From Rhabdaerophilum sp. SD176 (GTDB lineage: Bacteria > Pseudomonadota > Alphaproteobacteria > Rhizobiales > Beijerinckiaceae): a stretch of 64,000 nt of DNA. A program made the translations under genes and the position numbers. The notes under the pieces were generated by a model. The model did not search any database. It had not been told where the DNA came from and saw only the letters and a program-made list of their open reading frames with translations. This document shows positions 37,165 to 53,551 of this stretch, in pieces (the first letter of the stretch is position 1; every line of letters starts with the position of its first letter). The stretch spans positions 124,001-188,000 of the forward strand of contig NZ_JARJNS010000007.1 in assembly GCF_030143245.1 (NCBI RefSeq). Reading direction: 5' to 3'.

Positions 37165-37190
37165 GTAACGAACTGGTCGCGAGGATCGAA
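37165..37190 (+). promoter_or_regulatory. ECF sigma-type promoter GTAACG-N16-CGAA for the radical SAM gene
   Basis: GTAACG at 37165-37170, 16 bases, then CGAA at 37187-37190, with T before the -35 and AT after the -10. The radical SAM start lies 41 bases downstream. The same pattern stands before the ECF sigma gene itself and three other units in this block. It resembles the promoter class used by Caulobacter SigF (GTAACC-N16-CGAA, from memory). Confidence 0.77.
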
Positions 37191-37230
37191 ATGACCCATG
37201 TAGACCTCTCCGCATTCTGGAAGTGACGCC

Positions 37231-38178
37231 ATGGACCTTGGAACGCTCGGCCGAGCCAAATTTGATGATCCCGTTCTGACAGCAAAGGGCGAACGCCGGG
37301 CACGGGTCGGCCTGAAAGCGTTGGAAACCCTTTGGTTCAACACCGGCACCTTGTGCAACATTACCTGCCAGAATTGCTACATCGAGAGTTCGCCGAAAAA
37401 CGACCGGCTGGCCTATCTCTCCCTTGCCGATGTTCGAAGCTATCTGGACGAGATCCGCACCGGGAACCTGCCGGTCAAGATGATCGGGTTCACGGGCGGC
37501 GAACCCTTCATGAACCGTGAGATGATCGCGATCCTCGAGGAGACCCTCAATCGCGGTTTCGAGGTTCTCGTCCTCACCAATGCGATGCGGCCGATGATGC
37601 GCTTTCAGAAGGCGTTGAAACAGATCCGCGAGGCGCATGGCGGGTTGATCCGGTTCCGGGTTTCTCTGGACGATCACCGAGCCGAAATTCATGATCTGGA
37701 GCGGGGCACGGGCTCTTTCCGGAAAGCGATGGAGGGGCTCCGGTTCCTTTCCCGCGAAGGGTTTCAGATCGAGATTGCGGGCCGGCGTCTGGGCGCTGAA
37801 CCGGACGAAGTGGCCCGTGCCGGTTATCGCAACCTCTTCGCGAAGGAAGGGATCGGCATCGACTGTGATGATCCGGTGCAACTCGTCATCTTCCCGGAAA
37901 TGCTCCCCGATGCCGATCCGCCCGAAATCACCGAGGCCTGCTGGCGCATTCTGCACAAGAGCCCTGAGGATGTGATGTGCGCAACATCGCGAATGGTTGT
38001 CCGTCGGAACGGAGCGGATCGCCCCTCGGTGCTGGCCTGCACGCTGATTGCCTATGATCCCCGGTTTGAACTGGGACATACGCTCGCCGAGGCAAGCGCG
38101 CCCGTCGCCCTGAACCACCGCTATTGCGCAACCTTCTGTGTTCTCGGCGGGGCGGCCTGTGGTGCCACCAAGGGCTGA
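37231..38178 (+). CDS. Radical SAM enzyme of unknown reaction
   Basis: A 315-residue protein with the cluster motif LCNITCQNCY (Cys42, Cys46, Cys49) binding a 4Fe-4S cluster and SAM, and the GGEP motif in IGFTGGEPFMN (residues 89-92). The C-terminal 65 residues hold five more Cys (in DVMCATS, LACTLIA, HRYCATFCV and AACGA), suggesting a second cluster. The function is not recognised; it lacks the DUF3641 domain of ArsS as I recall it. It is preceded by a sigma-type promoter and converges with a PhnC-like ATPase gene. Context with glycosyltransferases and MtnP suggests small-molecule rather than peptide modification. Confidence 0.84.
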   Translation: MDLGTLGRAKFDDPVLTAKGERRARVGLKALETLWFNTGTLCNITCQNCYIESSPKNDRLAYLSLADVRSYLDEIRTGNLPVKMIGFTGGEPFMNREMIAILEETLNRGFEVLVLTNAMRPMMRFQKALKQIREAHGGLIRFRVSLDDHRAEIHDLERGTGSFRKAMEGLRFLSREGFQIEIAGRRLGAEPDEVARAGYRNLFAKEGIGIDCDDPVQLVIFPEMLPDADPPEITEACWRILHKSPEDVMCATSRMVVRRNGADRPSVLACTLIAYDPRFELGHTLAEASAPVALNHRYCATFCVLGGAACGATKG

Positions 38179-38215
38179 TTTTCTGCCCGGTTGGCGATCA
38201 GCCCGTCGTGAAGTG

Positions 38216-38911
38216 CTACGCGTCAGGTGCGGCCAATCGGCCGGAACGCATCAGCAGGATGCGGTCGGCAAATTCGGCAGCGAGTTCCGGCTGATGCAGC
38301 GTACAGAGGATGGCCAGCCCCTTCGACTTTGCCATCTCGCGCATGAGACCGAGAACCAGCCGCGCGGCGTGCGGATCAAGGCTGGCGACAGGTTCGTCCG
38401 CAAGCAGGATGCGGGTTTCCTGCATGAGGGCCCGAGCGATCGCAACGCGCTGTTGCTGCCCGCCGGACAAGGTATCGGCGCGCTGGTATCGCTGGCTGGC
38501 GAGACCGACCGATGCGAGCGCTGTTTCGGCTTTGGCCGTGAGGCCTTCCGGGTATAGCCCCGAAGCGATACGCCAGAGCGGGAGACGTGGCAAAGCGCCT
38601 GTCATCACATTCGCCAGGGCCGTTCGCCGTCGGACAAGGTTGAACTGCTGGAAGACAACGCCAATCCGGCCGCGGGCTTGCCGGAGTGCTCGCCCCTTGA
38701 GAGAGCCAAAGGCAACGCGATCGATTTCGATCGAACCGGCATCCGGCTCGATCAATCGTGTGATGCACCGGAAGAGCGTGGACTTCCCCGAGCCACTGGG
38801 GCCCAGCACAGCAACAAATTCGCCGGCCGCAATGTCAAACGAGACATTGTCGAGGGCGTCAAGCCCGCCGAAGCGTTTCGTGAGGCCCGCAACAGCAAGA
38901 ACCGGCGTCAT
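38216..38911 (-). CDS. PhnC-like ABC transporter ATP-binding protein
   Basis: A 231-residue ATPase: Walker A GPSGSGKST (residues 37-45), Q-loop VFQQFNLVRR, signature LSGGQQQRVAIARAL, Walker B ILLADEPVASLD and the switch His in CTLHQPELA. The FNLVRR and TLHQ features match phosphonate/phosphite importers (PhnC, PtxA). It overlaps the permease gene by four bases and is the last gene of a three-gene operon expressed from the sigma-type promoter at 40699. Confidence 0.87.
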   Translation of the reverse strand: MTPVLAVAGLTKRFGGLDALDNVSFDIAAGEFVAVLGPSGSGKSTLFRCITRLIEPDAGSIEIDRVAFGSLKGRALRQARGRIGVVFQQFNLVRRRTALANVMTGALPRLPLWRIASGLYPEGLTAKAETALASVGLASQRYQRADTLSGGQQQRVAIARALMQETRILLADEPVASLDPHAARLVLGLMREMAKSKGLAILCTLHQPELAAEFADRILLMRSGRLAAPDA

Positions 38912-39750
38912 GAAAGCCTCCGCCGAAGCCAGGCGCTCAGCTGATCGATAAGCGTGACCATCACCAGAATGACGAGAAGGATTGTCAGCACACGGTCAAA
39001 CAGCAGCAGATCGACGCTGTTCTTGAGTTCCTGTCCGATGCCCCCGGCCCCGACAATGCCGAGGACAGTGGAGGCCCGCACATTGAATTCCCACATGTAG
39101 AGAAGGATCGAGGCAAGCTGGGGCAGGACATCCGGCAACTGGGCATGGAAGAACACCTTGAGGCGGCCAGCCCCGCTCATCCGTGCCGCTTCGACGGGCC
39201 CGTTCTCGGCGGTTTCGATGGCCTCGGCCCAGAGCTTGGCGATCGATCCTGCCGTATGGACCGCAATGCCAAGAACGCCGGCGAAGGGGCCAAGGCCGAC
39301 CGCAGCAACGAAGATCAAGGCGAAGACGAAGGAATCGATGCCGCGCAGGCCATTCAGGAGCCAGCGCGCAGGAAGGGCCGCAATCGGCGAGATGCCGATA
39401 TTCCGGGCCGAGAGCAGGCAGATCGGCGCGGCAATGATCGCACCGAAAGAAACGCCGATTGTGGCCATGGCGACCGTTTCAAGGCCGCGCCGGATGAGGA
39501 CGTCCAGTTCGCTCAGATCCGGCGGCCAGGACCGCGCGAGCCATGTCCAGAGGCGCGGCAGCCCTTCAACGAGCCGTGAAAGACTGACTTCCGAGACGTG
39601 AAGGCATAGCAGGTAGAATGCGATGCCGAGAACAACCAGCGGCAGGAATGCCCGGGCCTGGCGAGGGCCGGGTTCAGTCGCTCCGCTTGGTCCCGTGTTA
39701 TTGCCATCCCGGGGCCGATCCACGGCCACGTCCTCGATCCGATCGGCCAC
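38908..39750 (-). CDS. PhnE-like ABC transporter permease
   Basis: A 280-residue permease with about six helices. The coupling loop is EAARMSGAGRLKVFFHAQLP followed by DVLPQLASILLYMWEFNVRA, and GIVGAGGIGQEL follows, typical of PhnE. A GTG at 39750, preceded by GAGGG, is chosen; it lies nine bases after the binding-protein stop. An ATG at 39840 lies inside the previous gene and lacks support. Confidence 0.83.
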   Translation of the reverse strand: MADRIEDVAVDRPRDGNNTGPSGATEPGPRQARAFLPLVVLGIAFYLLCLHVSEVSLSRLVEGLPRLWTWLARSWPPDLSELDVLIRRGLETVAMATIGVSFGAIIAAPICLLSARNIGISPIAALPARWLLNGLRGIDSFVFALIFVAAVGLGPFAGVLGIAVHTAGSIAKLWAEAIETAENGPVEAARMSGAGRLKVFFHAQLPDVLPQLASILLYMWEFNVRASTVLGIVGAGGIGQELKNSVDLLLFDRVLTILLVILVMVTLIDQLSAWLRRRLS

Positions 39751-39758
39751 AGCAGCCC

Positions 39759-40622
39759 TCAGGCCTTGGGTTGCAGGCGGCCGACGGCCATTCCGGCCGC
39801 TTCGATGAGGGCATAGGCGCTGTGACCGGCCTTGATCCACCCCGTATAGCGGGGGGCCATGATGGTCCGGGCATCCTCCTCCGAGATCGCGGTGACGATG
39901 TCCTGGATCCGCGCGGTCATCGCTGGTTCGAAGCCCGCGCGCACCACAAGCGGGTCATTCGGCAGCGGGTCGGAGGTCCAGACAATCCTGACCTCCTCGC
40001 GCTTGACGAGGCCACGATCCGCCATGCTGTTGAAGTTGCGATCGAAATCGGTCGCGAGGTCCACCTGCCCGTTGGCGACAGCCGTCACATTGGCCGGATG
40101 GGAGGCACCGTCGCGATACTGGAAGAATGTCTTCGGATCGATGCCCCGCTGCCGGAAATAATGGGTCGGAATCAGCCAGCCTGACGTCGAGCCGACATCC
40201 GCAAACGAGATCCGCAATCCCTTCGCGCCCTCCGGCCAGGAGGGAATCGTCAGGCCGGGACGGCCGAGGATGATGGCGTGATAGAACGGGCGGCCATCAT
40301 ATTTGACGGTGGCGATTGCCTGTGCGCCGCCCTGATGATGGGCGAGCACATAGCCCCACGGGCCCATCCAGGCGAGATCGGCCTGCCCATTGGCGAGCGC
40401 GATCGCAATCCCGGCCCAATCATTGGTGACCACGAGGTCATAGGGTCGGCCAAGGCGATCGGCGAGATGCTTGAAGAACGGCTCGAAGGCTTTCCGCGTG
40501 TCTGACGGTGTTGGCTGAAAAGGGCCAACGGCAAAACGCAGGCGAGTTTCCCGTGCCCGGAGGATCGCCGGTGCAGCCAGCAGGCCGCCGGTTGTCAGAA
40601 TCAGGGATCGACGGCTCAGCAT
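39759..40622 (-). CDS. PhnD-like periplasmic binding protein
   Basis: A 287-residue protein with a twin-arginine-like signal (MLSRRSLILTTGGLLAAPAI). The mature part has LRFAVGPFQPTPSDTRKAFE, TNDWAGIAIALANGQADLAW, DVGSTSGWLIPTHYF and NDPLVVRAGFE, the plan of phosphate/phosphite/phosphonate-binding PhnD proteins. The true ligand could be any small oxyanion or organophosphorus/arsenic compound. It is the first gene of the importer operon and starts 77 bases from a sigma-type promoter. Confidence 0.85.
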   Translation of the reverse strand: MLSRRSLILTTGGLLAAPAILRARETRLRFAVGPFQPTPSDTRKAFEPFFKHLADRLGRPYDLVVTNDWAGIAIALANGQADLAWMGPWGYVLAHHQGGAQAIATVKYDGRPFYHAIILGRPGLTIPSWPEGAKGLRISFADVGSTSGWLIPTHYFRQRGIDPKTFFQYRDGASHPANVTAVANGQVDLATDFDRNFNSMADRGLVKREEVRIVWTSDPLPNDPLVVRAGFEPAMTARIQDIVTAISEEDARTIMAPRYTGWIKAGHSAYALIEAAGMAVGRLQPKA

Positions 40623-40698
40623 GAGAAGGCTCTCGCTTGTCAGGTTCTCGGACGTGAACGATGCCATCCCTGCTCGAGCAGGTCGGCCTATGCGAGAT

Positions 40699-40724
40699 TT
40701 CGGTCTGCCGATCAGTAACGTTAC
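40699..40724 (-). promoter_or_regulatory. ECF sigma-type promoter for the PhnD-like importer operon
   Basis: On the minus strand: TGTAACG with GTAACG at 40724-40719, 16 bases, then CGAA at 40702-40699. The importer starts at 40622. Its -35 hexamer overlaps by two bases that of the opposite promoter at 40715, forming the palindrome GTAACGTTAC. Confidence 0.77.
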
Positions 40725-40740
40725 AGCAGAGGCCTGCGAA
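40715..40740 (+). promoter_or_regulatory. ECF sigma-type promoter for the metallophosphoesterase gene
   Basis: GTAACG at 40715-40720, 16 bases, CGAA at 40737-40740. The gene starts at 40768, only 27 bases after CGAA, with its ribosome site GAAGAGG in between. Confidence 0.77.
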
Positions 40741-40767
40741 AACAGGGGGAACGGAAGAGGTGCTCTC

Positions 40768-41628
40768 ATGAACGACAAGGCCTGGCTGCTCTTTGGTGGT
40801 CCCTACAGCAACCTTCAGGCGACAGAGGCTCTGCTGGCCGAGGCAAAACGGCTCGGGTTCCCGTCAGAGCGGATGCTGTGTACTGGCGATCTCGTTGCCT
40901 ATTGCGGTGATCCGGTCGCAACCATCGACAGGATCCGCGAGGCCGGCATTGCCGTCGTGATGGGAAATTGCGACGAGCAGCTCGGGGCCGGAGCCACGGA
41001 TTGCGGATGCGGGTTCGAGCCGGACAGCGCCTGCGCGCGCCTCTCCGCCGATTGGTATTCCTATGCGAACAGCGTCGTACGCCCCGATCAGCGCCTTTGG
41101 CTCGCCGGCTTGCCGCGCCGCATCGACCTCGATATCGGCGGCAGGACATTCGCGGCCATCCATGGCTCGGCGAAGTCCATCAATGCATTCGTCTTTTCCG
41201 GTACGCCGGAGCCGGAAAAGCTAGCCAGCCTCGAGGATGTCGGTTGCGACGGCGTGATCGGCGGGCATTCAGGTCTTCCGTTCACCGACCGGATCGATCA
41301 TCGCCTCTGGCACAACCCCGGCGTGATCGGTATGCCGGCCAATGACGGCACCGCGAGGGTCTGGTTCAGCCTGCTCATCCCGGAACCGGCGGGGCTGAGG
41401 ATCGAGCATCGTGCACTTGCCTATGATGTTGCCGGGGCACAGGCCGCGATGGCGCGTGCGGGGCTGCCGGCCTGTTATCGCGAGGCTCTGGGCACCGGAC
41501 TTTGGCCAAGCCTCGACGTGCTGACCGAGCGCGAGCGGATGGCAACCGGCAAGCCGATCAAGGAGACAGGCTTCCTTTGGTCCGCGCCCTTGAAAGACGA
41601 GGTCCCGCAGGCTGAAGCCGCGGCCTGA
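40768..41628 (+). CDS. Metallophosphoesterase-fold protein with altered first metal motif
   Basis: A 286-residue protein of the calcineurin-like fold. Later motifs are in place: CTGDLVAYCGDP (motif II), VMGNCDEQ (motif III), AIHGSAK and IGGHSGLPF (His-containing motifs IV and V). The first motif, normally D-x-H-G-N, reads LLFGGPYSNLQA, so the Asp and His that hold the first metal are missing. It may bind one metal or act on an unusual substrate. The ATG at 40768 has GAAGAGG eight bases upstream. It is divergent from the PhnD-like importer and shares its promoter region. Confidence 0.77.
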   Translation: MNDKAWLLFGGPYSNLQATEALLAEAKRLGFPSERMLCTGDLVAYCGDPVATIDRIREAGIAVVMGNCDEQLGAGATDCGCGFEPDSACARLSADWYSYANSVVRPDQRLWLAGLPRRIDLDIGGRTFAAIHGSAKSINAFVFSGTPEPEKLASLEDVGCDGVIGGHSGLPFTDRIDHRLWHNPGVIGMPANDGTARVWFSLLIPEPAGLRIEHRALAYDVAGAQAAMARAGLPACYREALGTGLWPSLDVLTERERMATGKPIKETGFLWSAPLKDEVPQAEAAA

Positions 41629-41636
41629 CCGGATCT

Positions 41637-42290: not shown

Positions 42291-42406
42291 TCTTGCCTCC
42301 GCCAGGTAGCCGTTCAGCGCCGTGAAACCGGGATCTGTCCAGCCGGAGGCATCTGACGCCAAACCGCACCGGTTGGACCTTCTGTTGATCTGGCTACGTT
42401 CCCAAA

Positions 42407-42432
42407 TACGCGACACCCGTCAGTTCTGTTAC
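42407..42432 (-). promoter_or_regulatory. Weaker sigma-type promoter candidate for the TIGR04283-like gene
   Basis: On the minus strand GTAACA (42432-42427), 16 bases, CGTA (42410-42407). It differs from the five perfect sites at one -35 and one -10 base, and lies 117 bases from the gene start. Listed because spacing and strand fit, but chance occurrence is possible. Confidence 0.35.
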
Positions 42433-42514
42433 AGACATTTTGCGACCGGCAGGGAAGAACAACACGGGCACACACCCTTTCGGCAGCGTTGGACGCTCGT
42501 CAGCGAAAACCAGA

Positions 42515-43441
42515 TCAGATCAGCAGCTCCGCCCAGCCCTTGAACCTGCGCCTGCCGGAACCATCCGTTCGACGGACCTCGCCCTGGATCACCGACATGG
42601 CGAAGCCGCCCTTTGTCCAATCCGCCACAGCCTCGAGATGGACCGTCGAGGCTTCCAGCTGCCATTGCCCGCCGGCATGTTGAAAGCCGATCTCCCATCG
42701 GGTCGGCCAACGGTAGTCGCGATCCGCCAAAGCCTGGGTCTCCTTGATGGAAAAATCGATTGCGGAGAGCGTACCAGGCGCCTCGAATGTGGCCATCCCG
42801 CTCTCACGCGGCGTCCCAGGCTGGATGCGTTCGTGATAGCGGATATAGAGGTCGTGGTAATCCTCGGTCATCAGGTAGAGACCGTTGAAATTGGACCAGT
42901 TGGCGCCAAAATCGCTGGTGAAGCGATTATATCCCGTCTGTGCGATGAACTCGAAGAGAACGCGCCCTTTCAAGGTTCGTCCGCGCCAGTTCAGGATGGC
43001 CGGCGCAGCGCCGATCCAGTAATCGCGATCCTCGGTCTGCCGGCGCAGGACCGGAACCAGCCTGTCGACTGACATCTCGATGCCGTTGGTTGCGCTGGAC
43101 ATGCGGATGCCGCTCTCGATTGTCCCCCGAAACTGGAAATGCCCGGAATCGGGAATGATCAGAAGTTCGCGCCCGGGATTGGGATAATGCGCGCTGCCGA
43201 CAATCGGCACGATGCCTGTGCCTTCGGCATACATCATGATCCAGTGATCGGCGAAAAACTGGTCACCGGTCTGTCCGCGATTATTGTCATGGGCAAGATA
43301 GACCGAGCCCTCCGCATCCGATCCCACAAAGGAAAAATAGTCGGAATGGTAGCGCTTCGTGACCTCGGCCCAAGCCGGATGGCTGGCGCAGACAGCGAGT
43401 CCGGTGCCCAGGCCAAAAAGGTCGCGGCGATTGAATGACAT
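42515..43441 (-). CDS. Exported protein of unknown function, twin-arginine-like signal
   Basis: A 308-residue protein with signal MSFNRRDLFGLGTGLAVCAS and likely cleavage near AWAEV. The mature part is rich in aromatic and beta-type segments: FSFVGSDAEGSVYLAHDNNR, WIMMYAEGTGIVPIVGSAHY, FGANWSNFNGLYLMTEDYHD and a C-terminal GRRRFKGWAELLI. The layout loosely recalls lipocalin-like carotenoid hydratase/AttH proteins, which I cannot confirm. It is divergent from the eight-gene flavoprotein operon and ends near the TIGR04283-like gene. No perfect sigma-type promoter was found for it. Confidence 0.62.
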   Translation of the reverse strand: MSFNRRDLFGLGTGLAVCASHPAWAEVTKRYHSDYFSFVGSDAEGSVYLAHDNNRGQTGDQFFADHWIMMYAEGTGIVPIVGSAHYPNPGRELLIIPDSGHFQFRGTIESGIRMSSATNGIEMSVDRLVPVLRRQTEDRDYWIGAAPAILNWRGRTLKGRVLFEFIAQTGYNRFTSDFGANWSNFNGLYLMTEDYHDLYIRYHERIQPGTPRESGMATFEAPGTLSAIDFSIKETQALADRDYRWPTRWEIGFQHAGGQWQLEASTVHLEAVADWTKGGFAMSVIQGEVRRTDGSGRRRFKGWAELLI

Positions 43442-43589
43442 GAATTGACCTCTCCCTGCCTGGGCAGCAACGATGCCGGCTCATGCGTATCGCGCAATTC
43501 ACGTTCTCTCGATCACGGCTTCTCAAAAGCGGCGGAGCCATGTCCAGCGCGTTCACGATTGCCTGACAAAGGCGTGAAGCGCTTTGGCT

Positions 43590-43615
43590 GTAACGGGAAT
43601 TCCGCCAGACACGAA
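43590..43615 (+). promoter_or_regulatory. ECF sigma-type promoter for the eight-gene flavoprotein operon
   Basis: TGTAACG with GTAACG at 43590-43595, 16 bases, CGAA at 43612-43615 followed by TAT. The first start codon of the operon is at 43652, 36 bases downstream, with AGGA in between. Confidence 0.77.
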
Positions 43616-43651
43616 TATACTCGCAAGAAACACGAGTTCACAGGAACCCTG

Positions 43652-45130
43652 ATGGCCGGTGCAACCACTCCATCGCTGCCGCCGAAGCGCCCGGAAATCC
43701 GCGGCGATACCGTTCATGCCGATCTTTGCATTCTGGGCGCAGGATCCGGAGGGCTTTCCGTCGCAGCCGGTGCCGTCCAGATGGGTGCATCCGTTGTCCT
43801 GATCGAAAAGGGCGAGATGGGCGGGGATTGCCTCAATACGGGGTGCGTGCCGTCAAAGGCCCTGATTGCAGCGGCCCATGTAGCCCATACCCATCGAATC
43901 GGGGGCCGGTTTGGCATCCATGGCGCGGAACCGGAAATCCGGTTTCACGAGGTGCACGACCATGTCCATGGCGTCATCGGCGCGATCGCCCCGCATGACA
44001 GCGTCGAGCGGTTCGAAGGCCTGGGCGTCATGGTCATCAAGGCCGCCGGTCAGTTTGTCGATAGAGAAACGGTCGAGGCCGGTGGCCGCCGGATCAAGGC
44101 CCGCCGCTTCGTGGTGGCGACGGGCTCGCGGGCGGCCGTACCACCGATCCCGGGCCTCGCGGAAGCTGGCTATCTCACCAATGAAACGGTTTTCGAACTG
44201 AAGGAACGTCCCGCCCACCTGATCGTGATTGGTGGTGGACCGATCGGGATCGAGATGGCGCAATCCTTTCGTCGTCTGGGATCGGAAGTGACCGTCATCG
44301 AGAAATTCGGGATCCTCTCGAGGGATGAGCCGGAGGCGGTCGAGGTCGTGCGGGCATCGCTTTCCGGCGACGGCGTGCGTCTTGTCGAAGGCCTTGGCGT
44401 CAGCGAGGTCGGACGGGACGATGGCGCGGTTACCGTGACCCTGGATGCCGACAGCCCGTTTGGCCGGACACTGTCCGGCACGCATATCCTCGTAGCGGCT
44501 GGGCGGCGTCCGAATATCGAGAGCCTCGGACTCGACAAGGCAGGTATCGCCGCATCGCCGAAGGGAATCACCGTCGATGCGCGGCTGATCACCAGCAACC
44601 GCAAGGTCTTCGCCATCGGCGATGTGGCCGGCGGCCCGCAATTCACCCATATCGCCGGCTATCACGCCGGAATTGTCATCCGGAACGCCTTGTTCGGGCT
44701 GCCGGCCAAGGTGGATTATCGCGCCTTGCCCTGGGTCACATACACGGATCCCGAACTCGCCCATGCCGGGCTGACCGAGGCCGAGGCCCGCAAGGCGGGC
44801 CACGCCGTTGAAACCCTGACCTGGTCCTTTGCCTTGAATGACCGGGCACAGGCCGAACGGGCAACTGAGGGTCTCGCCAAAGTCGTTCTCGGGCCGAAAG
44901 GCAAGATTCTCGGCGCGACGATTGTCGGCCCCCGGGCCGGCGAGTTGATCGGCACCTGGGCACTGGCCATCAGCGCCGGGCTGAAAATCGGAGCGATCGC
45001 CGGGGCTGTGCTCCCCTATCCAACCCTCTCCGAAATCTCGAAACGGGCCGCGGGCAGTTATTACACGCCGAAGCTCTTCGGCACTTTCACCCGCCGCGTC
45101 GTCGGCCTTGTCCAACGCATCCTGCCCTGA
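43652..45130 (+). CDS. Pyridine nucleotide-disulfide oxidoreductase, MerA/Lpd-like, without the C-terminal His motif
   Basis: A 492-residue flavoprotein. FAD motif GAGSGGLSVAAGA (residues 29-41), redox-active pair CLNTGCVPSK (Cys60, Cys65), NAD(P) motif VIGGGPIGIEMA, and FAD-contact VFAIGDVAGGPQF. In dihydrolipoamide dehydrogenase the dimer end carries HAHPT-SE; here it is VLPYPTLSEISKR, with no active-site His. It also lacks the MerA N-terminal metal domain and C-terminal Cys pair. So it keeps a dithiol but not the usual proton relay. It leads an operon whose genes mostly overlap; relatives commonly sit beside TVP38 proteins. Confidence 0.85.
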   Translation: MAGATTPSLPPKRPEIRGDTVHADLCILGAGSGGLSVAAGAVQMGASVVLIEKGEMGGDCLNTGCVPSKALIAAAHVAHTHRIGGRFGIHGAEPEIRFHEVHDHVHGVIGAIAPHDSVERFEGLGVMVIKAAGQFVDRETVEAGGRRIKARRFVVATGSRAAVPPIPGLAEAGYLTNETVFELKERPAHLIVIGGGPIGIEMAQSFRRLGSEVTVIEKFGILSRDEPEAVEVVRASLSGDGVRLVEGLGVSEVGRDDGAVTVTLDADSPFGRTLSGTHILVAAGRRPNIESLGLDKAGIAASPKGITVDARLITSNRKVFAIGDVAGGPQFTHIAGYHAGIVIRNALFGLPAKVDYRALPWVTYTDPELAHAGLTEAEARKAGHAVETLTWSFALNDRAQAERATEGLAKVVLGPKGKILGATIVGPRAGELIGTWALAISAGLKIGAIAGAVLPYPTLSEISKRAAGSYYTPKLFGTFTRRVVGLVQRILP

Positions 45131-45867: not shown

Positions 45868-45905
45868 TGACGCTCTCGCCAAGAAATGCTCCGGAGACAT
45901 CCCAG

Positions 45906-46727: not shown

Positions 46728-46761
46728 TCTGCCCGCGAATGAAGGCAAGACGGGCAGAGAC

Positions 46762-47358
46762 ATGACGGGGCTCGGAATGAAACCGCGAACGCTGGCAATC
46801 GGACTCGGAGCCGGCTTGCTCCTGGTGGCCGCAGCCGCATATGGCGGCCTGCCTGCCCTGTCGCCCAACCTTCGCCCCTGGACATTGGATCCGACTGATC
46901 CCCGTGTGTCGCTGGAAGATGTCGAGCGCGAAGTCATCCGCCGCTACCCGGTTGACGATGTTCTGCCTTCGACACTGGCGGCGATGGTCGCCCGCGGCGA
47001 CGTCACCCTTCTTGACGTACGCACGCAGGAAGAGTTCGAGTCAGGCCATCTCGCCGGCGCGATCCGGGTTGAGCCAGGGAGTTCGGCCGAAGATATCCTG
47101 CGACAGCATCAGACCCGCCTGAAGGGCCGCCCGGTTGTGTTCTATTGTGCCGTGGGGGTGCGTTCGTCGCAGGTGTTGATGCAATCGTTGCGGGAACTGG
47201 TCCCCCATACCGATGGCCGCCTCTACAATCTTCGAGGCGGTGTCTTCCGCTGGACGGCGGAAGGGCGCCCGCTCGTCAGCGGAAACAAGCCGGGCAAGGC
47301 GCATCCCTATGACAAGGATTGGGGACAGCTCCTTTCAAGGACTGTGCCTGGTCTATGA
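46762..47358 (+). CDS. Rhodanese-domain protein with N-terminal membrane anchor
   Basis: A 198-residue protein. An N-terminal helix (TLAIGLGAGLLLVAAAAYGG) anchors or exports it. The rhodanese domain spans about residues 75-180 with TLLDVRTQEEFESGHLAGAI and the active Cys in FYCAVGVRSSQV, whose loop is CAVGVRS. It would carry a persulfide (or Se/As-linked group) in the periplasm. Its stop overlaps the start of the GT-C gene (ATGA). Confidence 0.87.
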   Translation: MTGLGMKPRTLAIGLGAGLLLVAAAAYGGLPALSPNLRPWTLDPTDPRVSLEDVEREVIRRYPVDDVLPSTLAAMVARGDVTLLDVRTQEEFESGHLAGAIRVEPGSSAEDILRQHQTRLKGRPVVFYCAVGVRSSQVLMQSLRELVPHTDGRLYNLRGGVFRWTAEGRPLVSGNKPGKAHPYDKDWGQLLSRTVPGL

Positions 47359-48773
47359 GCATGGAGTTTCCAGCCATCGTCGGCCGCGACCGCATTCTGC
47401 GTGAATCCCGGTTCTTCCTTCTCTTGGCTGTCCTTGCAGGGGCTGTCCTCGTGCAGTCTGCGATCGCTTTCGTCTTCGGCTCGATGCCAGGCTCTGCACG
47501 CGATACATGGCCCGTGTCCCTGCCGCTCTTCGGCCTGCTGGCCAGTTCGGGCGGTCTCGTGCTCTGGAGCGTCTGGCATGCCCGCTCCCTTCCGGACGGG
47601 CCGTGCCTGCTGAGCGCGGTCGCCATCGCGGGGTTTCTGATGCGGCTGCCCTATTTCGGTGCCGGCCCCATGCTGGAGGATGATCAATTCCGCTATCTCC
47701 TCGACGGCGCGATGGTCGCACATGGGTTCAGCCCCTATGCCCTGTCACCGCAGGATCTTCTGAACGGCAGCGGGAATCCGGCTGCCGGGCTGGTTGCTTC
47801 CGGCCGCCCTGTGATCGAGGCGATCAATTTCCCGGATCTGCGCTCGGTCTATCCCGGGACAGCGCAGATCCTGTTTGCACTCGCGCATAGGCTGATGCCG
47901 TGGGACATGGATGGCATCAGGGTTCTTGTTCTCGCGGCCGAAAGCATCACGGCAATCCTGATCTGGCATGTCCTGAAGGTTTCAGGACGCTCGTCCCTTG
48001 GCGCTGCCCTTTACTGGTGCAACCCGCTTCTGGCGTTCTGCCTGACCGGGCAGGCGCATATCGATGCGGCTCTCGTCCCGGCGGTTTTCCTTGCGCTTCT
48101 TGCCGGCTGGTACGGCAGAAGCCTTGCTGCCGGCGTTGCGCTGGGCGTGGCGGTTGGAGTGAAGCTCTGGCCCATTCTTTTGGCGCCGCTTCTGGCTCGG
48201 ATGTTCTGGCCGGCAGGAAAGGCCATCGCCTCGTTCGCGCTCGGGCTTGGGATCATCAGCGCCGCGCTCTGTGCTCCGCTGATTTTGGCAAGCCTGTCCC
48301 CGAATGCCGGGTTGACGGCCTATGCCGGCGGCTGGAGCGTCAACAACGCCCCGTTCGCCTGGCTCTCCTACGCGGCCTTGCATTGGATCGGGCCAACAAC
48401 CGGTGAGCAGGCCCTGCGCCTGACAATGGCAGCCCTCGGCCTCAGCGTGAGCTTGCTTGTCGCCTGGAAAAGGCCGGACACTCTCGGCGGGCTTTTCGGA
48501 TCAGCCGCCCTGCTGGCTGCTTCCGTGTTCTATCTCTCTCCCGCTCAATTCCCGTGGTACGCCGTGTGGTTCCTGCCCCTGGCCATCGCGGCGGGCGGCT
48601 GGGCGCTGGCCGCCGCCACAACCGGGTTGCCGATCTATTTCCTGTTCTTCCCCCTGGCAGCGGCGGGCCAACGTGACATTCACAGCTACTGGCTGGCTGC
48701 CCTCCATGTGATGCCCGTTCTGATGGTCGGCCTCCTCGTCCACAGGTCGTCAGGGCAAGGCTCGGTCTCATGA
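47355..48773 (+). CDS. GT-C type membrane glycosyltransferase
   Basis: A 472-residue protein with about eleven helices. The first outside loop has GPMLEDDQFRYLLDGAMVAH with the acidic pair of GT-C enzymes (E/DD), followed by GFSPYAL, and later VGVKLWPILLAPLL. GT-C enzymes transfer a sugar from a polyprenyl-phosphate carrier on the outer side of the inner membrane. It overlaps the rhodanese gene and the GT2 gene at its two ends by four bases. It pairs logically with the DPM1-like GT2 enzyme, which would make the lipid-linked sugar. Confidence 0.8.
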   Translation: MSMEFPAIVGRDRILRESRFFLLLAVLAGAVLVQSAIAFVFGSMPGSARDTWPVSLPLFGLLASSGGLVLWSVWHARSLPDGPCLLSAVAIAGFLMRLPYFGAGPMLEDDQFRYLLDGAMVAHGFSPYALSPQDLLNGSGNPAAGLVASGRPVIEAINFPDLRSVYPGTAQILFALAHRLMPWDMDGIRVLVLAAESITAILIWHVLKVSGRSSLGAALYWCNPLLAFCLTGQAHIDAALVPAVFLALLAGWYGRSLAAGVALGVAVGVKLWPILLAPLLARMFWPAGKAIASFALGLGIISAALCAPLILASLSPNAGLTAYAGGWSVNNAPFAWLSYAALHWIGPTTGEQALRLTMAALGLSVSLLVAWKRPDTLGGLFGSAALLAASVFYLSPAQFPWYAVWFLPLAIAAGGWALAAATTGLPIYFLFFPLAAAGQRDIHSYWLAALHVMPVLMVGLLVHRSSGQGSVS

Positions 48774-49486
48774 GTTTGAACGGGATGAGGATCGGGGTTG
48801 TGATCCCGACACGGAATGAAGCCGGCGCCCTGCCGACGGTGCTGGCCAGCATGCCCGGTTTTGTCGATGCCGTTGCCATCGGAGATTTTCGCTCAAGCGA
48901 CGGCACGCCGGAAATCGGGCGCCGGGCCGGAGCAATCGTGGTGGACGTTTCCGGACCGGGTTATGGCCGGGCCTGTCTCGAGGCGATCCAGGCGATGCCG
49001 CCGGTCGATATCCTCGTCTTCGTCGATGGCGATGCTGCAGATGACCTTTCGGCCATGGCACGCCTTGTCGAGCCGATCCTCCAGGGTGAAGCTGTCTTCG
49101 CGCTCGGGTCGCGGGTGCTCGGCCGGCGGGAACGCGGTGCGCTGACACCCCAGCAGATCTTCGGGAACTGGCTCGCCTGCACCCTGATCCGGCTGATCTG
49201 GGGCAAGACCTTCACCGATCTGGGGCCCTTCCGGGCGATCACCCGCGCAGCTTTTGACCGTCTCGCGATGGCCGATATGAACTATGGCTGGACGGTTGAA
49301 ATGCAGATCAAGGCCGCACAGGCGGGTCTTCTCACGCGCGAGATCCCGGTCGACTACCGGCGGCGGATCGGAGTTTCCAAGGTCTCGGGCACACTGAACG
49401 GCACGATTCGCGCCGGCAGCAAGATCCTGTGGGTGATCGGTCGGGAAGCGATCGGTTCAGCCGGCTTCCAGAGGCGCAGTTCATGA
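48770..49486 (+). CDS. GT2 family glycosyltransferase, dolichyl-phosphate-sugar synthase-like
   Basis: A 238-residue soluble GT-A enzyme. VVIPTRNEAGALPTVLAS opens the fold, VFVDGDAADDL carries the metal-binding acidic motif, and FTDLGPFRAITRAAFDRL with WTVEMQIKAA is typical of DPM1/polyprenyl-phosphate sugar synthases. It should load a sugar onto a lipid carrier or other acceptor. It is coupled by four-base overlaps to the GT-C gene before and the DUF2064 gene after. Confidence 0.85.
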   Translation: MSLNGMRIGVVIPTRNEAGALPTVLASMPGFVDAVAIGDFRSSDGTPEIGRRAGAIVVDVSGPGYGRACLEAIQAMPPVDILVFVDGDAADDLSAMARLVEPILQGEAVFALGSRVLGRRERGALTPQQIFGNWLACTLIRLIWGKTFTDLGPFRAITRAAFDRLAMADMNYGWTVEMQIKAAQAGLLTREIPVDYRRRIGVSKVSGTLNGTIRAGSKILWVIGREAIGSAGFQRRSS

Positions 49487-50199
49487 CGGCTGTCCGGACA
49501 GGCACAGGCTGGATCGGTCTCGGCTTGATGTGCAAGCCGCCGCGTCCGGGCACAAGCAAGACGAGGCTGGCGGGTTCGATCGGCCCCGAAGCCGCGGCGC
49601 GCCTGTCACAGGCGTTTCTGGAGGATTGCGCGCATTCGGCACGCGAGGCGGCCGCAATTGCCCGCCTTTTGCCCCGCGCCTTTTTCCGGCCCGAAGACGG
49701 CCGGCAGGAACTCGCCACCATCCTCGGCCCGGATTGGCCCCTGACCTTGGCCGATTCAGGCGATCTCGGGGCGACCATGATCGAGGTGCTGGCGCAGTTG
49801 CTCGCGGAATGCCCTGCCGGCGCCATGATCATGGGGGCGGATATGCCGCTCATGGGCAAGGCGGCTATTGTCGAAGCGGCAGAGGCCCTGCGCGCGGGCG
49901 GCACTGATGGCGTGGTCATCATTCCAAGCGCAGATGGCGGCTATTGCCTGCTGGGTATTCGTTCGCTCGCCGCTGCAAGGGCCCTCTGCGCACCCATGGC
50001 CTGGAGCACGCCAACCGTCCTCGCGGAGACATGCCGCCGTGCAGAGATCGCGGGCCTCGCTGTCCAGAGCCTTGCCGTCCAGCGGGACATTGACGAGCAG
50101 GCCGATCTCGGCTGGTTGAAAGCCGAACTGGCTCGCGACGCGACGGCGGCACCTTCCACACGGCGCACCATCAACGCGCTCCAAGCAATGGTACAGTGA
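49483..50199 (+). CDS. DUF2064 / TIGR04282-like transferase (rSAM/selenodomain-associated transferase 1)
   Basis: A 238-residue nucleotidyltransferase-fold protein: LMCKPPRPGTSKTRLAGSIG near the start, ADMPLMGKAAIVEAAEAL in the middle, and VVIIPSADGGYCLLGIRSL. This matches the CofC/MobA-like DUF2064 family named TIGR04282. Members cluster with TIGR04283, ArsS-like enzymes and DPM1-like transferases. A role in activating or transferring a sugar or glycerol-phosphate unit is inferred. The ATG at 49483 overlaps the GT2 stop. Confidence 0.82.
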   Translation: MTAVRTGTGWIGLGLMCKPPRPGTSKTRLAGSIGPEAAARLSQAFLEDCAHSAREAAAIARLLPRAFFRPEDGRQELATILGPDWPLTLADSGDLGATMIEVLAQLLAECPAGAMIMGADMPLMGKAAIVEAAEALRAGGTDGVVIIPSADGGYCLLGIRSLAAARALCAPMAWSTPTVLAETCRRAEIAGLAVQSLAVQRDIDEQADLGWLKAELARDATAAPSTRRTINALQAMVQ

Positions 50200-51329
50200 T
50201 GGACCGTCACCTCGTCCTCATCGGTGGCGGGCATGCGCATGTCCAGGTCATCCGTGCCCTAGCAGAACGCCCCGAGCCCGGCTTGCGGGTGACCTTGGTG
50301 ACCGATCGGCTGCTCACACCCTATTCGGGCATGCTGCCCGGGCATGTCGCGGGTTTCTACAGCCACGACGACATGCATATCGACCTCGAAAGGCTGGCCC
50401 ATGTATCTGGCATGGCGTTGGTCCGCTCGGCTGCTTGCCGCATTGACCGCCAGAGCCGGCTGGTGATGACGGAAGATGGCACCGTCGTTCCCTTCGACAT
50501 CCTGTCGCTCAATGTCGGCATTACGCCCGACCTTTCAGGGATTGCAGGCGCGGACAGGCATGGCATCGCCGTCAAGCCGATCAGTACCTTCCTCGGAAGG
50601 CTGGAGAGGGTGCTGGACGACGCGTCACGCCCGGATGGGCCACGCCGGATCATTCTGGTGGGCGGAGGAGCAGCCGGGATTGAACTTGCGCTTGCGCTGA
50701 AGGCACGGCTCCGCTCGATAGATGCCGCCGGGCGGCCCTTCTGGATCGCCATCGCGACAGGCAACGGCCTCGTGCCGACCTTGAATGGCAGCGTTCAGCG
50801 CCGGGCCCGCGCAGCGCTGGCTCGCCATGGCGTCAAGGTGCTCGATGCCTTCCGCGTTGCAGAGATCAACTCCGATGGCATCCGCTCGCGGGATGGCCGC
50901 TTTGTTGCTGCCGACGCCGTGCTCGTTTCAACGGCGGCACGCGCACCGGCCTGGCTTCAGGAGACCGGCCTTCCGACCGATCCGGGTGGCTTTGTGAAGA
51001 TCGAACAAACCCTGACGGTCATGGATGATCCTGCGATCTTTGCGGTCGGCGATTGCGCAACGGTCGTTGACAACCCGATGCCGAAAGCAGGCGTCTTCGC
51101 GGTTCGGCAAGGTGCAGCCCTTACCGAGAATCTGCGCCGGACATGCCGGCATATGCCACTTCTTCCGCACCAACCGGATCGGAATTTTCTCACCATCCTG
51201 ATGACGGGTGATGGATCCGCGATCGCTGGTCGCGGACGCTGGTTCGCCTTGGAGGGGGCCTGGGTCTGGCGCTGGAAAGACTGGATCGACCGCCGCTTCA
51301 TGCGGCTTTTCTCCGATTTCCGGCGTTGA
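50199..51329 (+). CDS. FAD/NAD(P) oxidoreductase like the N-terminal domain of SelD fusions
   Basis: A 376-residue flavoprotein starting LVLIGGGHAHVQVIRALAER, with TPYSGMLPGHVAGFYSHDDM, second nucleotide motif IILVGGGAAGIELALAL and FAVGDCATV. This exact domain type is found fused ahead of selenophosphate synthetase in some bacteria; here it stands alone and no SelD follows. It is an NDH-2-like oxidoreductase without a disulfide. Start overlaps the DUF2064 stop by one base (TGATG). It is the last gene of the eight-gene operon; its presence beside rhodanese and TIGR0428x genes hints at selenium or arsenic chemistry. Confidence 0.83.
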   Translation: MDRHLVLIGGGHAHVQVIRALAERPEPGLRVTLVTDRLLTPYSGMLPGHVAGFYSHDDMHIDLERLAHVSGMALVRSAACRIDRQSRLVMTEDGTVVPFDILSLNVGITPDLSGIAGADRHGIAVKPISTFLGRLERVLDDASRPDGPRRIILVGGGAAGIELALALKARLRSIDAAGRPFWIAIATGNGLVPTLNGSVQRRARAALARHGVKVLDAFRVAEINSDGIRSRDGRFVAADAVLVSTAARAPAWLQETGLPTDPGGFVKIEQTLTVMDDPAIFAVGDCATVVDNPMPKAGVFAVRQGAALTENLRRTCRHMPLLPHQPDRNFLTILMTGDGSAIAGRGRWFALEGAWVWRWKDWIDRRFMRLFSDFRR

Positions 51330-51389
51330 TCATGCCCCATCGGCGTCAAATGGGTGGCAAGTCCTTGGCCGAGAAGGCAAATCCCTTGC

Positions 51390-52259
51390 TTACCGAAGCA
51401 CCCGCCCGGCCACGGCATCGAGTTTCGCCACAAGGACCGGATCGCGCGCCTCGGGCGCCGTAATGATGGCAAAATCGAGCGCCCGGTGCGAGCCGACGGG
51501 GCATTCTTCCCGCTCTGCCGGGAAATCCGCTGCCAGTTCCGCCAGCACGCGCCGCGCCGCCAGCGTGTTTTCGTGCACCTGATGGATGACCAGTTCGACG
51601 CTGACATTGGCATGGTCCGGGTGCCAGCAATCAAAATCTGTCACCATGGCGCACATGGAATAGGTGATCTCGGCTTCCCGGGCGAGCTTGGCTTCGGGCA
51701 TCGATGTCATGCCAATGATGTCGTAGCCGAGCCCCTTGTAGAAGAGGCTCTCGGCTCGTGTCGAGAATTGCGGGCCCTCCATGCAGACAGCAGTTCCCCC
51801 CTCGCGAATTGTGATCCCGGCGCGGCGCGCAGCCTCGGCCACCCGGCGGCTGAGTCTCGGTCCGAAAGGATCCCCGAAGGCGACATGCGCCACGCAGCCA
51901 TTGCCGAAAAAGCTGCTCTCTCGGGAAAATGTGCGGTCGACCAGTTGATCGGGGACAACAAACACGCCCGGGGCCAGATCTTCCTTGTAGGAGCCGACCG
52001 CCGAAAAGCTGACAATATCCGTGACGCCAACCCGCTTGAGCGCATCGATATTCGCGCGGTAGTTGATCCCGTCGGGGGAAAGGCGGTGCCCCTCGCCATG
52101 GCGGGGCAGGAAGACCAGTTCGGTCGTGCCGATCCGCCCGAACCGCAATGCGGCCGAGGGTTGCCCCCACGGCGTCTGGACCATCTCCTCCCGTCGATCC
52201 TCCAGCCCCGGCAGATCATAAAGACCTGAACCACCGATCACGCCAAGCCGAGCCTTCAT
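51390..52259 (-). CDS. mtnP: S-methyl-5'-thioadenosine phosphorylase
   Basis: A 289-residue nucleoside phosphorylase: LGVIGGSGLYDLPGLED, LPRHGEGHRLSPDGINYRAN, AVCMEGPQFSTRAES and TDFDCWHP, the last being typical of enzymes for 5'-modified adenosines. It splits methylthioadenosine and similar 5'-deoxy-5'-substituted adenosines into adenine and the sugar phosphate. It lies 60 bp after nrsF on the same strand, so it is probably in the sigma factor operon. That places a 5'-modified adenosine cleaving enzyme in the same regulon as a radical SAM enzyme. Confidence 0.92.
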   Translation of the reverse strand: MKARLGVIGGSGLYDLPGLEDRREEMVQTPWGQPSAALRFGRIGTTELVFLPRHGEGHRLSPDGINYRANIDALKRVGVTDIVSFSAVGSYKEDLAPGVFVVPDQLVDRTFSRESSFFGNGCVAHVAFGDPFGPRLSRRVAEAARRAGITIREGGTAVCMEGPQFSTRAESLFYKGLGYDIIGMTSMPEAKLAREAEITYSMCAMVTDFDCWHPDHANVSVELVIHQVHENTLAARRVLAELAADFPAEREECPVGSHRALDFAIITAPEARDPVLVAKLDAVAGRVLR

Positions 52260-52319
52260 GGAAATATCCTTGTGTTTGGGGATGCAATCGGCGTGTTGAA
52301 AGCCGTCGTGGATCGGGAT

Positions 52320-52955
52320 CTACCAGCGGAGCCACAGGTGCCCGGCCAGGGAGCCGACAACAGCGACGATGACAGCGGCAAGTGAATACCAGGCCGCCAC
52401 GAAGCTGGTGCTGTCTTCCGTGCAGTAGAGACCATAGGCCACGATGGCCAACCCGGCCGAGGCAAGACCCGCGAGTGCTCCGGCAGAGGCCGGATGGGAT
52501 GTTGCACCCGCCCGCAAGGCCATCAGGGACGTGACCAGCGGCATAGCGGCCAGAAGCGGGATGACGGTCAGGCAGGAAATGATGCTCTTCCCCAGCATCC
52601 GGCTGAGGAACCCCTCTTGCCCCCATGTCGCAAGATCAACCGCCAGGAGAAGCGATAGGGGCAGAAGAACAGCAGCAAGGGCAGCAAGCCCCCGGGCGAT
52701 CGAGGCCTCCGGGCGCAGGAGCGTGCGGGTGCCCATGAGCGCGGCGATGGCAACAACCAGCCCAAGACCGGTCTTGACGAGTGTCGGCATCGCGCCTGTC
52801 GACGTCAGATCTGTCCTGATCCCCACCAGACCAAGAAAGATGATGCCCGTGGCAAGCGCGGCGACGGGCAGCCAGATCAGCAGGCGCCGGCTGGCTCTCG
52901 GGGGTTTGACGGCGAGATCCTCGGCCAGCCAGTCGATGAGTTTCTCAGTCTGCAT
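52320..52955 (-). CDS. NrsF-like anti-sigma factor (DUF1109)
   Basis: A 211-residue membrane protein with six helices. A short cytoplasmic start (KLIDWLAEDLAVKPPR) precedes the membrane part, as in DUF1109 proteins such as Caulobacter NrsF. Only a few Cys are present, one in the helix IISCLTVIPLLA and one near GLYCTEDS, which may sense metal or redox state by analogy with NrsF. The ATG at 52955 lies inside the end of the sigma gene (11-base overlap), the standard arrangement for a sigma/anti-sigma pair. Confidence 0.86.
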   Translation of the reverse strand: MQTEKLIDWLAEDLAVKPPRASRRLLIWLPVAALATGIIFLGLVGIRTDLTSTGAMPTLVKTGLGLVVAIAALMGTRTLLRPEASIARGLAALAAVLLPLSLLLAVDLATWGQEGFLSRMLGKSIISCLTVIPLLAAMPLVTSLMALRAGATSHPASAGALAGLASAGLAIVAYGLYCTEDSTSFVAAWYSLAAVIVAVVGSLAGHLWLRW

Positions 52956-53511
52956 GTCGGCTCTTCCCGAACATTTTTCCAAGCCGTTTCAGGGAGCGGT
53001 GAAGCGCAACGCGCACGGCGCCCTCGCTCATGCCGAGTTCCGCACCGACATCTGCAGAAGAACGGCCAACCATGATGATCTGCTCGACAAGCTTGCGCTG
53101 TTTCGCATCCAGCGCATTCAGGATTCTCGCACTATCAAGCGTGCTGTCACGCCTCTCGTCCGGCGCGGCCAGCGCTTCACTCATCGTGTCGATATCCACC
53201 TCGACCCTGAACCCGGACTTGCGAAGGGCGTCGATCGCCTTGTAGCGCGCAACGGCATTGAGCCAGGGCAGGAAGGGAAACGAAGGGTCCCATGTCGCGC
53301 GTTTGAGATGAACGGCAAGCAGCGTTTCCTGTACGATGTCCTCGAGATCCGCCAGGCCTCGCCCGGAACGCATGAGCAGGGGGCGCACAACGCCGCGAAG
53401 ATGCGGCGCAACCGCACCAAGAAGCGTCTTGTAGGCGCCCACATCACCGTCAAGGGCCTGACGCATCAGGTTGCTCCATTCCTCTTCTTTTCCCGCCGGT
53501 CTTTTATGCAC
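52945..53511 (-). CDS. ECF sigma factor of the NrsF-controlled (SigF-like) type
   Basis: A 188-residue sigma factor. Region 2: AYKTLLGAVAPHLRGVVRPL, DLEDIVQETLLAVHLKRATW, then FLPWLNAVARYKAIDALRKS. Region 4: RKLVEQIIMVGRSSADVGAE followed by LGMSEGAVRVALHRSLKRL. It directs RNA polymerase to a set of stress promoters and is held by the membrane anti-sigma encoded next. GTG at 53511, with AGGAAG, is chosen as it keeps the conserved EEEWSNLM stretch; an ATG at 53466 with GGAG is an alternative and would leave a more usual leader from the promoter at 53526. It appears to control its own gene and four other promoters in this block. Confidence 0.87.
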   Translation of the reverse strand: MHKRPAGKEEEWSNLMRQALDGDVGAYKTLLGAVAPHLRGVVRPLLMRSGRGLADLEDIVQETLLAVHLKRATWDPSFPFLPWLNAVARYKAIDALRKSGFRVEVDIDTMSEALAAPDERRDSTLDSARILNALDAKQRKLVEQIIMVGRSSADVGAELGMSEGAVRVALHRSLKRLGKMFGKSRHAD

Positions 53512-53525
53512 GCGACTTCCTGATA

Positions 53526-53551
53526 TTCGGACCCAGACTCCCATCCGTTAC
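53526..53551 (-). promoter_or_regulatory. ECF sigma-type autoregulatory promoter
   Basis: On the minus strand TGTAACG with GTAACG at 53551-53546, 16 bases, CGAA at 53529-53526 followed by TAT. It lies 15 bases before the GTG at 53511 and 60 bases before the ATG at 53466. ECF genes commonly drive their own expression from the promoter class they recognise, which supports reading the motif as this sigma factor's target. Confidence 0.79.

Follow-up and report, generated by a model that had tools for sequence, protein, structure and literature searches.

The window analysed here is a 64,000-nucleotide stretch of the genome of Rhabdaerophilum sp. SD176 (assembly GCF_030143245.1, contig NZ_JARJNS010000007.1, positions 124,001 to 188,000), and it contains a gene block whose last operon encodes an extracytoplasmic function (ECF) sigma factor and the membrane anti-sigma factor NrsF. 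Judged from sequence, the block is almost certainly an autoregulated regulon of the ECF16 type, whose prototype is the SigF-NrsF system of Caulobacter crescentus. An autoregulated ECF16 regulon with six promoters, together with one pathway shared by its products, is very probably the best explanation of the whole, and the shared pathway taken alone is somewhat probable. The predicted promoters, in which 16 bases separate the -35 and -10 boxes, are located as follows.

37165 to 37190, plus strand: promoter 1, GTAACG-N16-CGAA, before the radical S-adenosylmethionine (SAM) gene
40699 to 40724, minus strand: promoter 2, GTAACG-N16-CGAA, before the importer
40715 to 40740, plus strand: promoter 3, GTAACG-N16-CGAA, before the metallophosphoesterase
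40715 to 40724, no strand: palindrome GTAACGTTAC, in which the -35 boxes of promoters 2 and 3 overlap back to back
42407 to 42432, minus strand: promoter 6, GTAACA-N16-CGTA, before the TIGR04283-like glycosyltransferase
43590 to 43615, plus strand: promoter 4, GTAACG-N16-CGAA, before the eight-gene operon
53526 to 53551, minus strand: promoter 5, GTAACG-N16-CGAA, before the sigma operon

The window has five matches to the strict pattern GTAACG-N16-CGAA, both strands counted, while 100 dinucleotide shuffles gave a mean of 0.05 matches and a maximum of 1. CGAA stands at the 16-base spacing in 5 of the 13 GTAACG of the window, and at any other spacing between 10 and 23 bases there is a single match altogether, at 12. 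Genome-wide (3,960,461 bases in 25 contigs) the strict pattern is again found five times, always within one 16.4-kb block, and nine matches were counted for the reversed pattern, which served as a rough control. The five strict sites are those that an earlier note on this DNA had listed, with the same positions and strands; its confinement of them to one block holds for all five, a genome scan for the exact pattern gives no further site, and its statement that other GTAAC occurrences lack CGAA at this distance is borne out for GTAACG. The distance from CGAA to the start codon is 15 to 77 bases, always on the coding strand, in agreement with the claimed 15 to 80. The count of five promoters stands in that all of them exist, but the sites at 40699 and 40715 are not independent, as their -35 boxes overlap by 2 bases within GTAACGTTAC. 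The regulon had also been called complete, which is valid for the strict pattern only, because 185 places match genome-wide when one mismatch is tolerated; the sixth promoter had been missed. GTAACN-N16-CGTA is present only twice in the whole genome, and one of these matches is promoter 6. Relaxing position 6 of the -35 box adds six GTAACC-N16-CGAA outside the block, five of them within open reading frames (ORFs), which were listed mechanically and of which four have at least 374 residues. The remaining, intergenic site lies 70 bases before an mltG gene (L014:1501-2997) and is either chance or a further target.

The sigma operon is formed by the following genes.

52945 to 53511, minus strand: ECF16-type sigma factor, NF009165 205.9 bits, above the cut-off; PF04542 and PF08281
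52320 to 52955, minus strand: NrsF/DUF1109 membrane anti-sigma factor, PF06532 142.9 bits (gathering threshold 26.8); cysteines 128 and 178
51390 to 52259, minus strand: MtnP, S-methyl-5'-thioadenosine phosphorylase, NF006492 468.1 bits, above the cut-off; probable third gene of the operon

These family models assign the sigma factor, which has both region 2 (PF04542) and region 4 (PF08281), and NrsF to the ECF16 group of Caulobacter SigF, and the two signalling cysteines are present. NrsF scores 80.9 of the 300 bits of the narrower NCBIfam model NF042994. The sigma gene overlaps nrsF, and mtnP lies 60 bases beyond nrsF. Both cysteines of NrsF, C128 and C178, are invariant in 13 of 13 aligned sequences and correspond to C129/C179 of OsrA and C131/C181 of Caulobacter NrsF, whose mutation alters sigma binding or signal response according to the available sections of PMC3420878 and PMC3511200. 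An ECF16 promoter is present at the own operon and at the targets, with G or A as the last -35 base instead of the c of tGTAACc-N16-CGAA. Beyond the sigma gene, a gene at 53735-54283 is apparently split by a reading-frame change, real or an assembly slip; we take it to be peroxiredoxin-like. A CAAA..GC..TTTG-form inverted repeat lies upstream of the sigma promoter, at 53572-53586, and a similar form is found in 7 aligned regions. In the Caulobacter system sigF is said to have a second, unknown regulator (PMC3511200, in part).

The block was compared in 17 genomes of the genus. The sigma gene (at least 66% identity) is present in six of them (G000, G004, G007, G010, G012 and G015), and the radical SAM gene in five, all among these six; mtnP is found in seven, the six with the sigma gene and G014, and therefore is not a core gene in the genus. 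In the window genome and five relatives the signal stands at 28 of 29 intact transcription-unit heads; the miss is the TIGR04283-type glycosyltransferase of G012, the broken importer of G007 and a 308-residue gene discussed below were left out, and G010, a 78% complete genome whose block runs off the contig, contributes one unit head only. Loss of the motif in relatives that keep the genes, named in the earlier note as evidence that would speak against the regulon, is thus mostly not seen. The radical SAM promoter keeps a distance of 41 bases in all five genus genomes with the gene, and the sigma promoter a distance of 15 in five of six. At the position of promoter 6, G015 and Bosea have GTAACG-N16-CGTA, and G007 and G004 have GTAACG-N16-CGAA. 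The both-way palindrome is present in G000, G015, G012 and Bosea. In G012 the importer and phosphoesterase genes are located on contig C6, apart from the block on C11, and have the same double promoter. G004 has no importer in its block (it was not sought elsewhere in this genome) and keeps the phosphoesterase promoter. In G007 the importer is a remnant with C-terminal PhnE and N-terminal PhnD parts (L057:5191-5828), and the -35 box facing it is altered by one base, TTAACG versus GTAACG. The five genomes with both sigma and radical SAM genes have 27 exact motif matches, 23 of which are in the block or the relocated module. G008 has a distant ECF16 sigma factor (39%, L061:7081-8603) with two exact motifs within 2.3 kb and no radical SAM gene.

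Upstream regions of 110 bases were aligned independently of the motif, because the core columns would otherwise be fixed by the search pattern. The rows were genus members and Bosea, with Devosia and Hyphomicrobium added for the radical SAM gene, all of them sequences in which the signal had already been seen; the flavin adenine dinucleotide (FAD) oxidoreductase gene of Devosia and the TIGR04283-type glycosyltransferases were left out. Conservation of core versus spacer was 0.97 versus 0.59 for the radical SAM gene (8 sequences), 1.0 versus 0.68 for the sigma gene (7), 1.0 versus 0.53 for the FAD operon (6) and 1.0 versus 0.69 for the phosphoesterase (6), so this proposed check came out in favour of the promoters in four units. 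The importer alignment failed, with four misaligned rows and a core of 0.72. An inverted repeat, TTCACG-N15-CGTGAA, is located at 43552-43578, 11 bases before the -35 box of the eight-gene operon, and could serve as a second operator; 4 of the 6 aligned regions contain a similar repeat.

Outside the genus the signal is found before the radical SAM gene in its closest relatives. We examined 100 radical SAM loci, including the best 80 of 550 confirmed relatives, and found GTAACN-N16-CG(A/T)A within 250 bases upstream of the gene in nine. These are the closest by identity (73-95%): four from the genus, one each from Bosea, Devosia and Phreatobacter, and two near-identical ones from Hyphomicrobium. 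The signal is absent upstream of the gene in the 91 remaining loci (38-69% identity), and ECF16 control therefore belongs to one branch of the radical SAM family. In Bosea, signals precede the sigma and radical SAM genes as well as the FAD operon and the units of the glycosyltransferase, phosphoesterase and importer, the last with the same palindrome. Hyphomicrobium has CGTA in the promoters of both its sigma and its radical SAM gene. In Devosia the signal precedes the sigma gene and two radical SAM genes that lie on separate contigs, in one case from 175 bases off; the second radical SAM gene of this metagenome-assembled genome (L207:9606-10774), on the other contig, is 53% identical to that of the window and is preceded by GTAACG-N16-CGAA. 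Phreatobacter has 12 GTAACN-N16-CGAA genome-wide, one of them before its radical SAM gene and another 132 bases before a phosphoesterase gene (50% identity) on another contig. In Brevundimonas the signal is found before mtnP and not before the radical SAM gene; an ORF of this genus just before the DUF547, TVP38 and FAD oxidoreductase genes (L182:3804-4406) is presumably MsrA-like.

Sigma factor and signal also occur together. Among ten genomes tested, an ECF16-like sigma factor of 40-63% identity is encoded in every one of the five in which the signal precedes cluster genes, namely those of Bosea, Devosia, Hyphomicrobium, Phreatobacter and Brevundimonas; in the other five, a search at E 1e-15 gave no such factor for four and a 39% relative for one. 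Over 358,325 bases from 19 sources there are 45 motif matches, 42 of them assigned by script to a cluster gene, a tally in which one Bosea site is counted twice and the assignment in L125 (DUF547) is probably spurious. The three unassigned matches include the Bosea glycosyltransferase site, which was removed by a distance filter. A GTAACT-N16-CGAA that precedes an arsM-type gene by about 70 bases (L114) was set aside as a single case that may be chance. The ECF-sigma regulon proposed by the earlier note is thus strongly supported by conservation, by the relocated module with its promoters and by the co-occurrence of sigma factor and targets.

The predicted target genes of the block, and one gene lying among them, are the following.

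37231 to 38178, plus strand: radical SAM protein, 315 residues, with CX3CX2C and conserved C-terminal cysteines; nearest NCBIfam model the Rv1681 family, below its cut-off
38216 to 38911, minus strand: PhnC-like ATPase of an ATP-binding cassette (ABC) importer, TIGR02315 257.8 bits (cut-off 266.1)
38908 to 39840, minus strand: PhnE-like permease of the ABC importer, TIGR01097 262.4 bits, above the cut-off; start uncertain
39759 to 40622, minus strand: periplasmic binding protein of the HtxB "hybrid" class, 49% identical to HtxB
40768 to 41628, plus strand: calcineurin-type metallophosphoesterase, 286 residues, PF12850
41637 to 42416, minus strand: TIGR04283-like glycosyltransferase, 140.2 bits (cut-off 182); start probably near 42362
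42515 to 43441, minus strand: 308-residue protein without a family match, N terminus signal-like; lacks an ECF16 promoter of its own
43652 to 45130, plus strand: MerA/lipoamide-dehydrogenase-like FAD oxidoreductase, NF004991 471.7 bits (cut-off 620)
45142 to 45867, plus strand: TVP38/VTT-domain membrane protein, PF09335
45867 to 46727, plus strand: DUF547 protein, PF04784
46600 to 47358, plus strand: rhodanese-domain protein, NF045521 "rhoda_near_glyco" 70.1 bits (cut-off 145); start probably near 46759
47319 to 48773, plus strand: membrane-type protein, 484 residues, no family match
48770 to 49486, plus strand: family 2 glycosyltransferase of the AglJ/dolichyl-phosphate type, from family scans
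49429 to 50199, plus strand: TIGR04282-like (CofC/DUF2064) transferase, 132.6 bits (cut-off 134)
50196 to 51329, plus strand: TIGR03169 oxidoreductase (N-terminal-to-SelD family), 414.8 bits, above the cut-off

The binding protein of the importer has HtxB as its best match (2.8e-89), followed by PtxB (1e-24), and matches the arsenic-binding proteins ArrX (2.4e-10) and AioX (2e-9) far more weakly. It keeps W52, the tryptophan that caps the P-H group, as well as P71, Y97, T129, S130, R178 and D206, and has the three substitutions N128S, F158H and M176F (M176Y/F in the class), so it belongs to the hybrid class that these substitutions define and whose members are thought by the authors likely to bind phosphite (PMC6629693, in part). 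It resembles in this the hybrid subclass related to HtxBCDE, the hypophosphite importer of Pseudomonas stutzeri; the block differs in that family scans of its proteins found no htxA or ptxD match.

The radical SAM family is present in 115 of 385 genomes sampled in the class. Inside stops in some class rows were considered as selenocysteine, and this was rejected; they are taken for natural ends because TAA and TAG occur besides TGA and nearly all matches reach at least residue 313. The structure model of the radical SAM protein (mean predicted local distance difference test score 89.2) was also rejected as a pointer to its substrate, since its PDB matches are a general radical SAM set. Neighbours were counted in 76 loci, which were left from the 100 after four genus loci were excluded and 20 near duplicates were dropped: a TIGR04282-type transferase is present in 13, a TIGR04283-type glycosyltransferase in 12, an FAD oxidoreductase in 10 and an arsM-type methyltransferase in 6. 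Among the scanned relatives, one TIGR04282 protein (194.9 of 134 bits) and one TIGR04283 protein (272 of 182 bits) are above the cut-offs. Several block genes cluster with the radical SAM gene also in loci where no sigma factor was found nearby. The earlier note had described the genes as without obvious relation, a view that is not supported, as several of them recur together around this gene in other bacteria, with the look of a single pathway.

From its predicted products the block is best read as an ECF16 regulon whose enzymes would adenosylate and glycosylate a small oxyanion, which may be an organoarsenical. In the resting state, by analogy with Caulobacter and Bradyrhizobium, the membrane protein NrsF would hold the sigma factor, and a signal received via the two conserved cysteines would free it. 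The freed sigma factor would then start transcription with RNA polymerase at the six promoters, GTAAC(G/A)-N16-CG(A/T)A, and switch on sigma-nrsF-mtnP, the radical SAM enzyme, the HtxB-hybrid importer, the metallophosphoesterase, the glycosyltransferase and the eight-gene redox and glycosyltransferase operon; at the shared -35 palindrome the importer and metallophosphoesterase directions would be mutually exclusive. A small tetrahedral oxyanion may be captured, receive a 5'-deoxyadenosyl group from the radical SAM enzyme, lose adenine by the action of MtnP and be joined to a glycosyl group, as in arsenosugar synthesis. In that synthesis a phosphorylase step, a phosphorolysis, follows adenosylation. 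The block resembles the arsenosugar pathway (ArsM, ArsS, phosphorylase, TIGR04282/TIGR04283) in having a radical SAM enzyme, a nucleoside phosphorylase and transferases that come near the cut-offs of the families labelled arsenosugar by NCBI, and differs from it in the lack of an ArsM above the cut-off in the genus, in a radical SAM enzyme outside the ArsS model, in the presence of an importer and in ECF16 control. Radical adenosylation is cited as part of arsenosugar synthesis in the available text of PMC12159101.

That arsenic is the element handled is a tentative suggestion. Import is considered because no ArsM of the genus is above the cut-off and the radical SAM enzyme does not fit the ArsS model. 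Dimethylarsinate has the shape of hypophosphite with methyls in place of hydrogens. In a speculative and rather improbable version, the HtxB-hybrid importer would carry dimethylarsinate or a like dialkyl oxyanion, the new radical SAM family would adenosylate it, MtnP and the glycosyltransferases would lead to an arsenosugar-like product, and the redox-sensing ECF16 sigma factor would switch on the whole. The part of it in which arsM-bearing bacteria would make the methylated arsenical and the genus of the window import it is held at the same low level of confidence.

Several results weigh against the regulon with a shared, arsenosugar-like pathway. At the promoters, the FAD gene of Devosia has GTAATG, outside the pattern, the TIGR04283-type glycosyltransferase of G012 has GTTACA-N16-CGTA, one base off, and the 308-residue gene (42515-43441, minus strand) lacks an ECF16 promoter in all three genus genomes where it was found. 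The genes found most often beside the radical SAM gene, at 22-23 each of the 76 loci, are sugar-phosphate genes of roseobacter-type loci, which we take to be zwf, pgl and pgi, and not pathway genes; they say little, and an inference of the pathway from the commonest neighbours was dropped. Only two of seven scanned arsM-type neighbours pass NF008823 (340.8 and 283 of 263 bits); four others score 158-168 bits, and one scores 208.7 and is nearest to the arsinothricin ArsM model (356.5 of 500). No ArsM above the NF008823 cut-off is present in the 17 genus genomes, where the best match reaches 59.2 bits in the window genome and 86.8 in the genus, compared with the 158-209 of the sub-cut-off neighbours elsewhere. 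In the window the TIGR04282-like (132.6 of 134 bits) and TIGR04283-like (140.2 of 182 bits) proteins are below their cut-offs, and the radical SAM protein reaches 62.1 of 300 bits against the ArsS model TIGR04167, in its N-terminal half only (the search with TIGR04167 did not extend to the rest of the genome). The best PDB fold matches of the predicted radical SAM structure are BlsE and SkfB, and not a C-As enzyme.

Three other explanations were weighed. The motif matches could be chance and the block an ordinary gene cluster; the pattern was indeed chosen after reading the sequence, and 24 exact matches are scattered over eight of the ten genus genomes without such a sigma factor. This is hardly conceivable in view of the conservation at fixed distances, the module that keeps its promoters on another contig and the sharp limit of the signal at the nine closest of the loci examined, and it is regarded as refuted. 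Scavenging of reduced phosphorus, in which the importer would take up phosphite or hypophosphite, the regulon would be a phosphorus or redox response and the other genes would serve envelope or lipid changes, is unlikely. The 49% identity of the binding protein with HtxB, its conserved tryptophan W52 of the P-H cap and the published view that hybrid proteins likely bind phosphite (PMC6629693, in part) favour it, but no block protein matched the phosphite dehydrogenase or hypophosphite dioxygenase families, which were not sought elsewhere in the genome, and the block of G004 lacks the importer, at least at this location, while its remaining units keep their promoters. ECF16 is not known to serve in phosphate starvation.

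A general oxidative or heavy-metal stress regulon, in which the oxidoreductases, rhodanese and TVP38 protein would be protective and MtnP would only salvage 5'-deoxyadenosine from the radical SAM enzyme, is likewise not the likely explanation. The MerA-like enzyme of the block fits it, and so do the known ECF16 systems, which respond to chromium, cadmium, hydrogen peroxide, singlet oxygen or hypochlorous acid (PMC3511200, PMC3420878, PMC8315932, each in part). It leaves the three glycosyltransferase-type genes and the phosphoesterase in need of another reason, the block proteins gave no match to methionine sulfoxide reductase families, which are among the targets of several ECF16 regulons, and several block genes cluster with the radical SAM gene where no sigma factor was found nearby.

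The regulon with a shared pathway can be compared with the described ECF16 systems, as far as the available sections of the papers go. The likeness to Caulobacter SigF-NrsF that the earlier note had pointed out is confirmed by the published motif, GTAACC-N16-CGAA, and extends to a sigma gene and a DUF1109/NrsF gene in one operon and to the two conserved cysteines (PMC3511200). The Caulobacter system, which responds to chromium and cadmium, differs in position 6 of the -35 box, which is G or A in the window, and in its set of targets, CC2905-2907, CC3254-3257 and CC2748. EcfF-OsrA of Bradyrhizobium has GTAAC(g,a) and CG(t,a) boxes, which match the G/A and CGAA/CGTA forms of the window, and cysteines 129 and 179, and differs in a spacing given as 14-15 instead of 16 (PMC3420878). 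The regulons of EcfF-OsrA and of Brucella BcrS-AbcS include methionine sulfoxide reductases, none of which was matched in the block (PMC3420878, PMC8315932). The target set of the window does not appear in the available sections of these three ECF16 papers, and the literature searched gave no description of an ECF16 regulon with a similar target set, no work joining ECF16 with arsenic or HtxB with radical SAM, and no mention of TIGR04283 in the papers listed for it.

The block thus represents a known kind of regulator with an unfamiliar target set, an ECF16 regulon that is readable from sequence and can be checked across families. It gives a gene context to the HtxB hybrid importers, which are otherwise discussed only as likely phosphite binders in the available text of PMC6629693. 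It also links a radical SAM family to a phosphorylase, to glycosyltransferases and, in some lineages, to arsM-type methyltransferases, which makes a common substrate testable.

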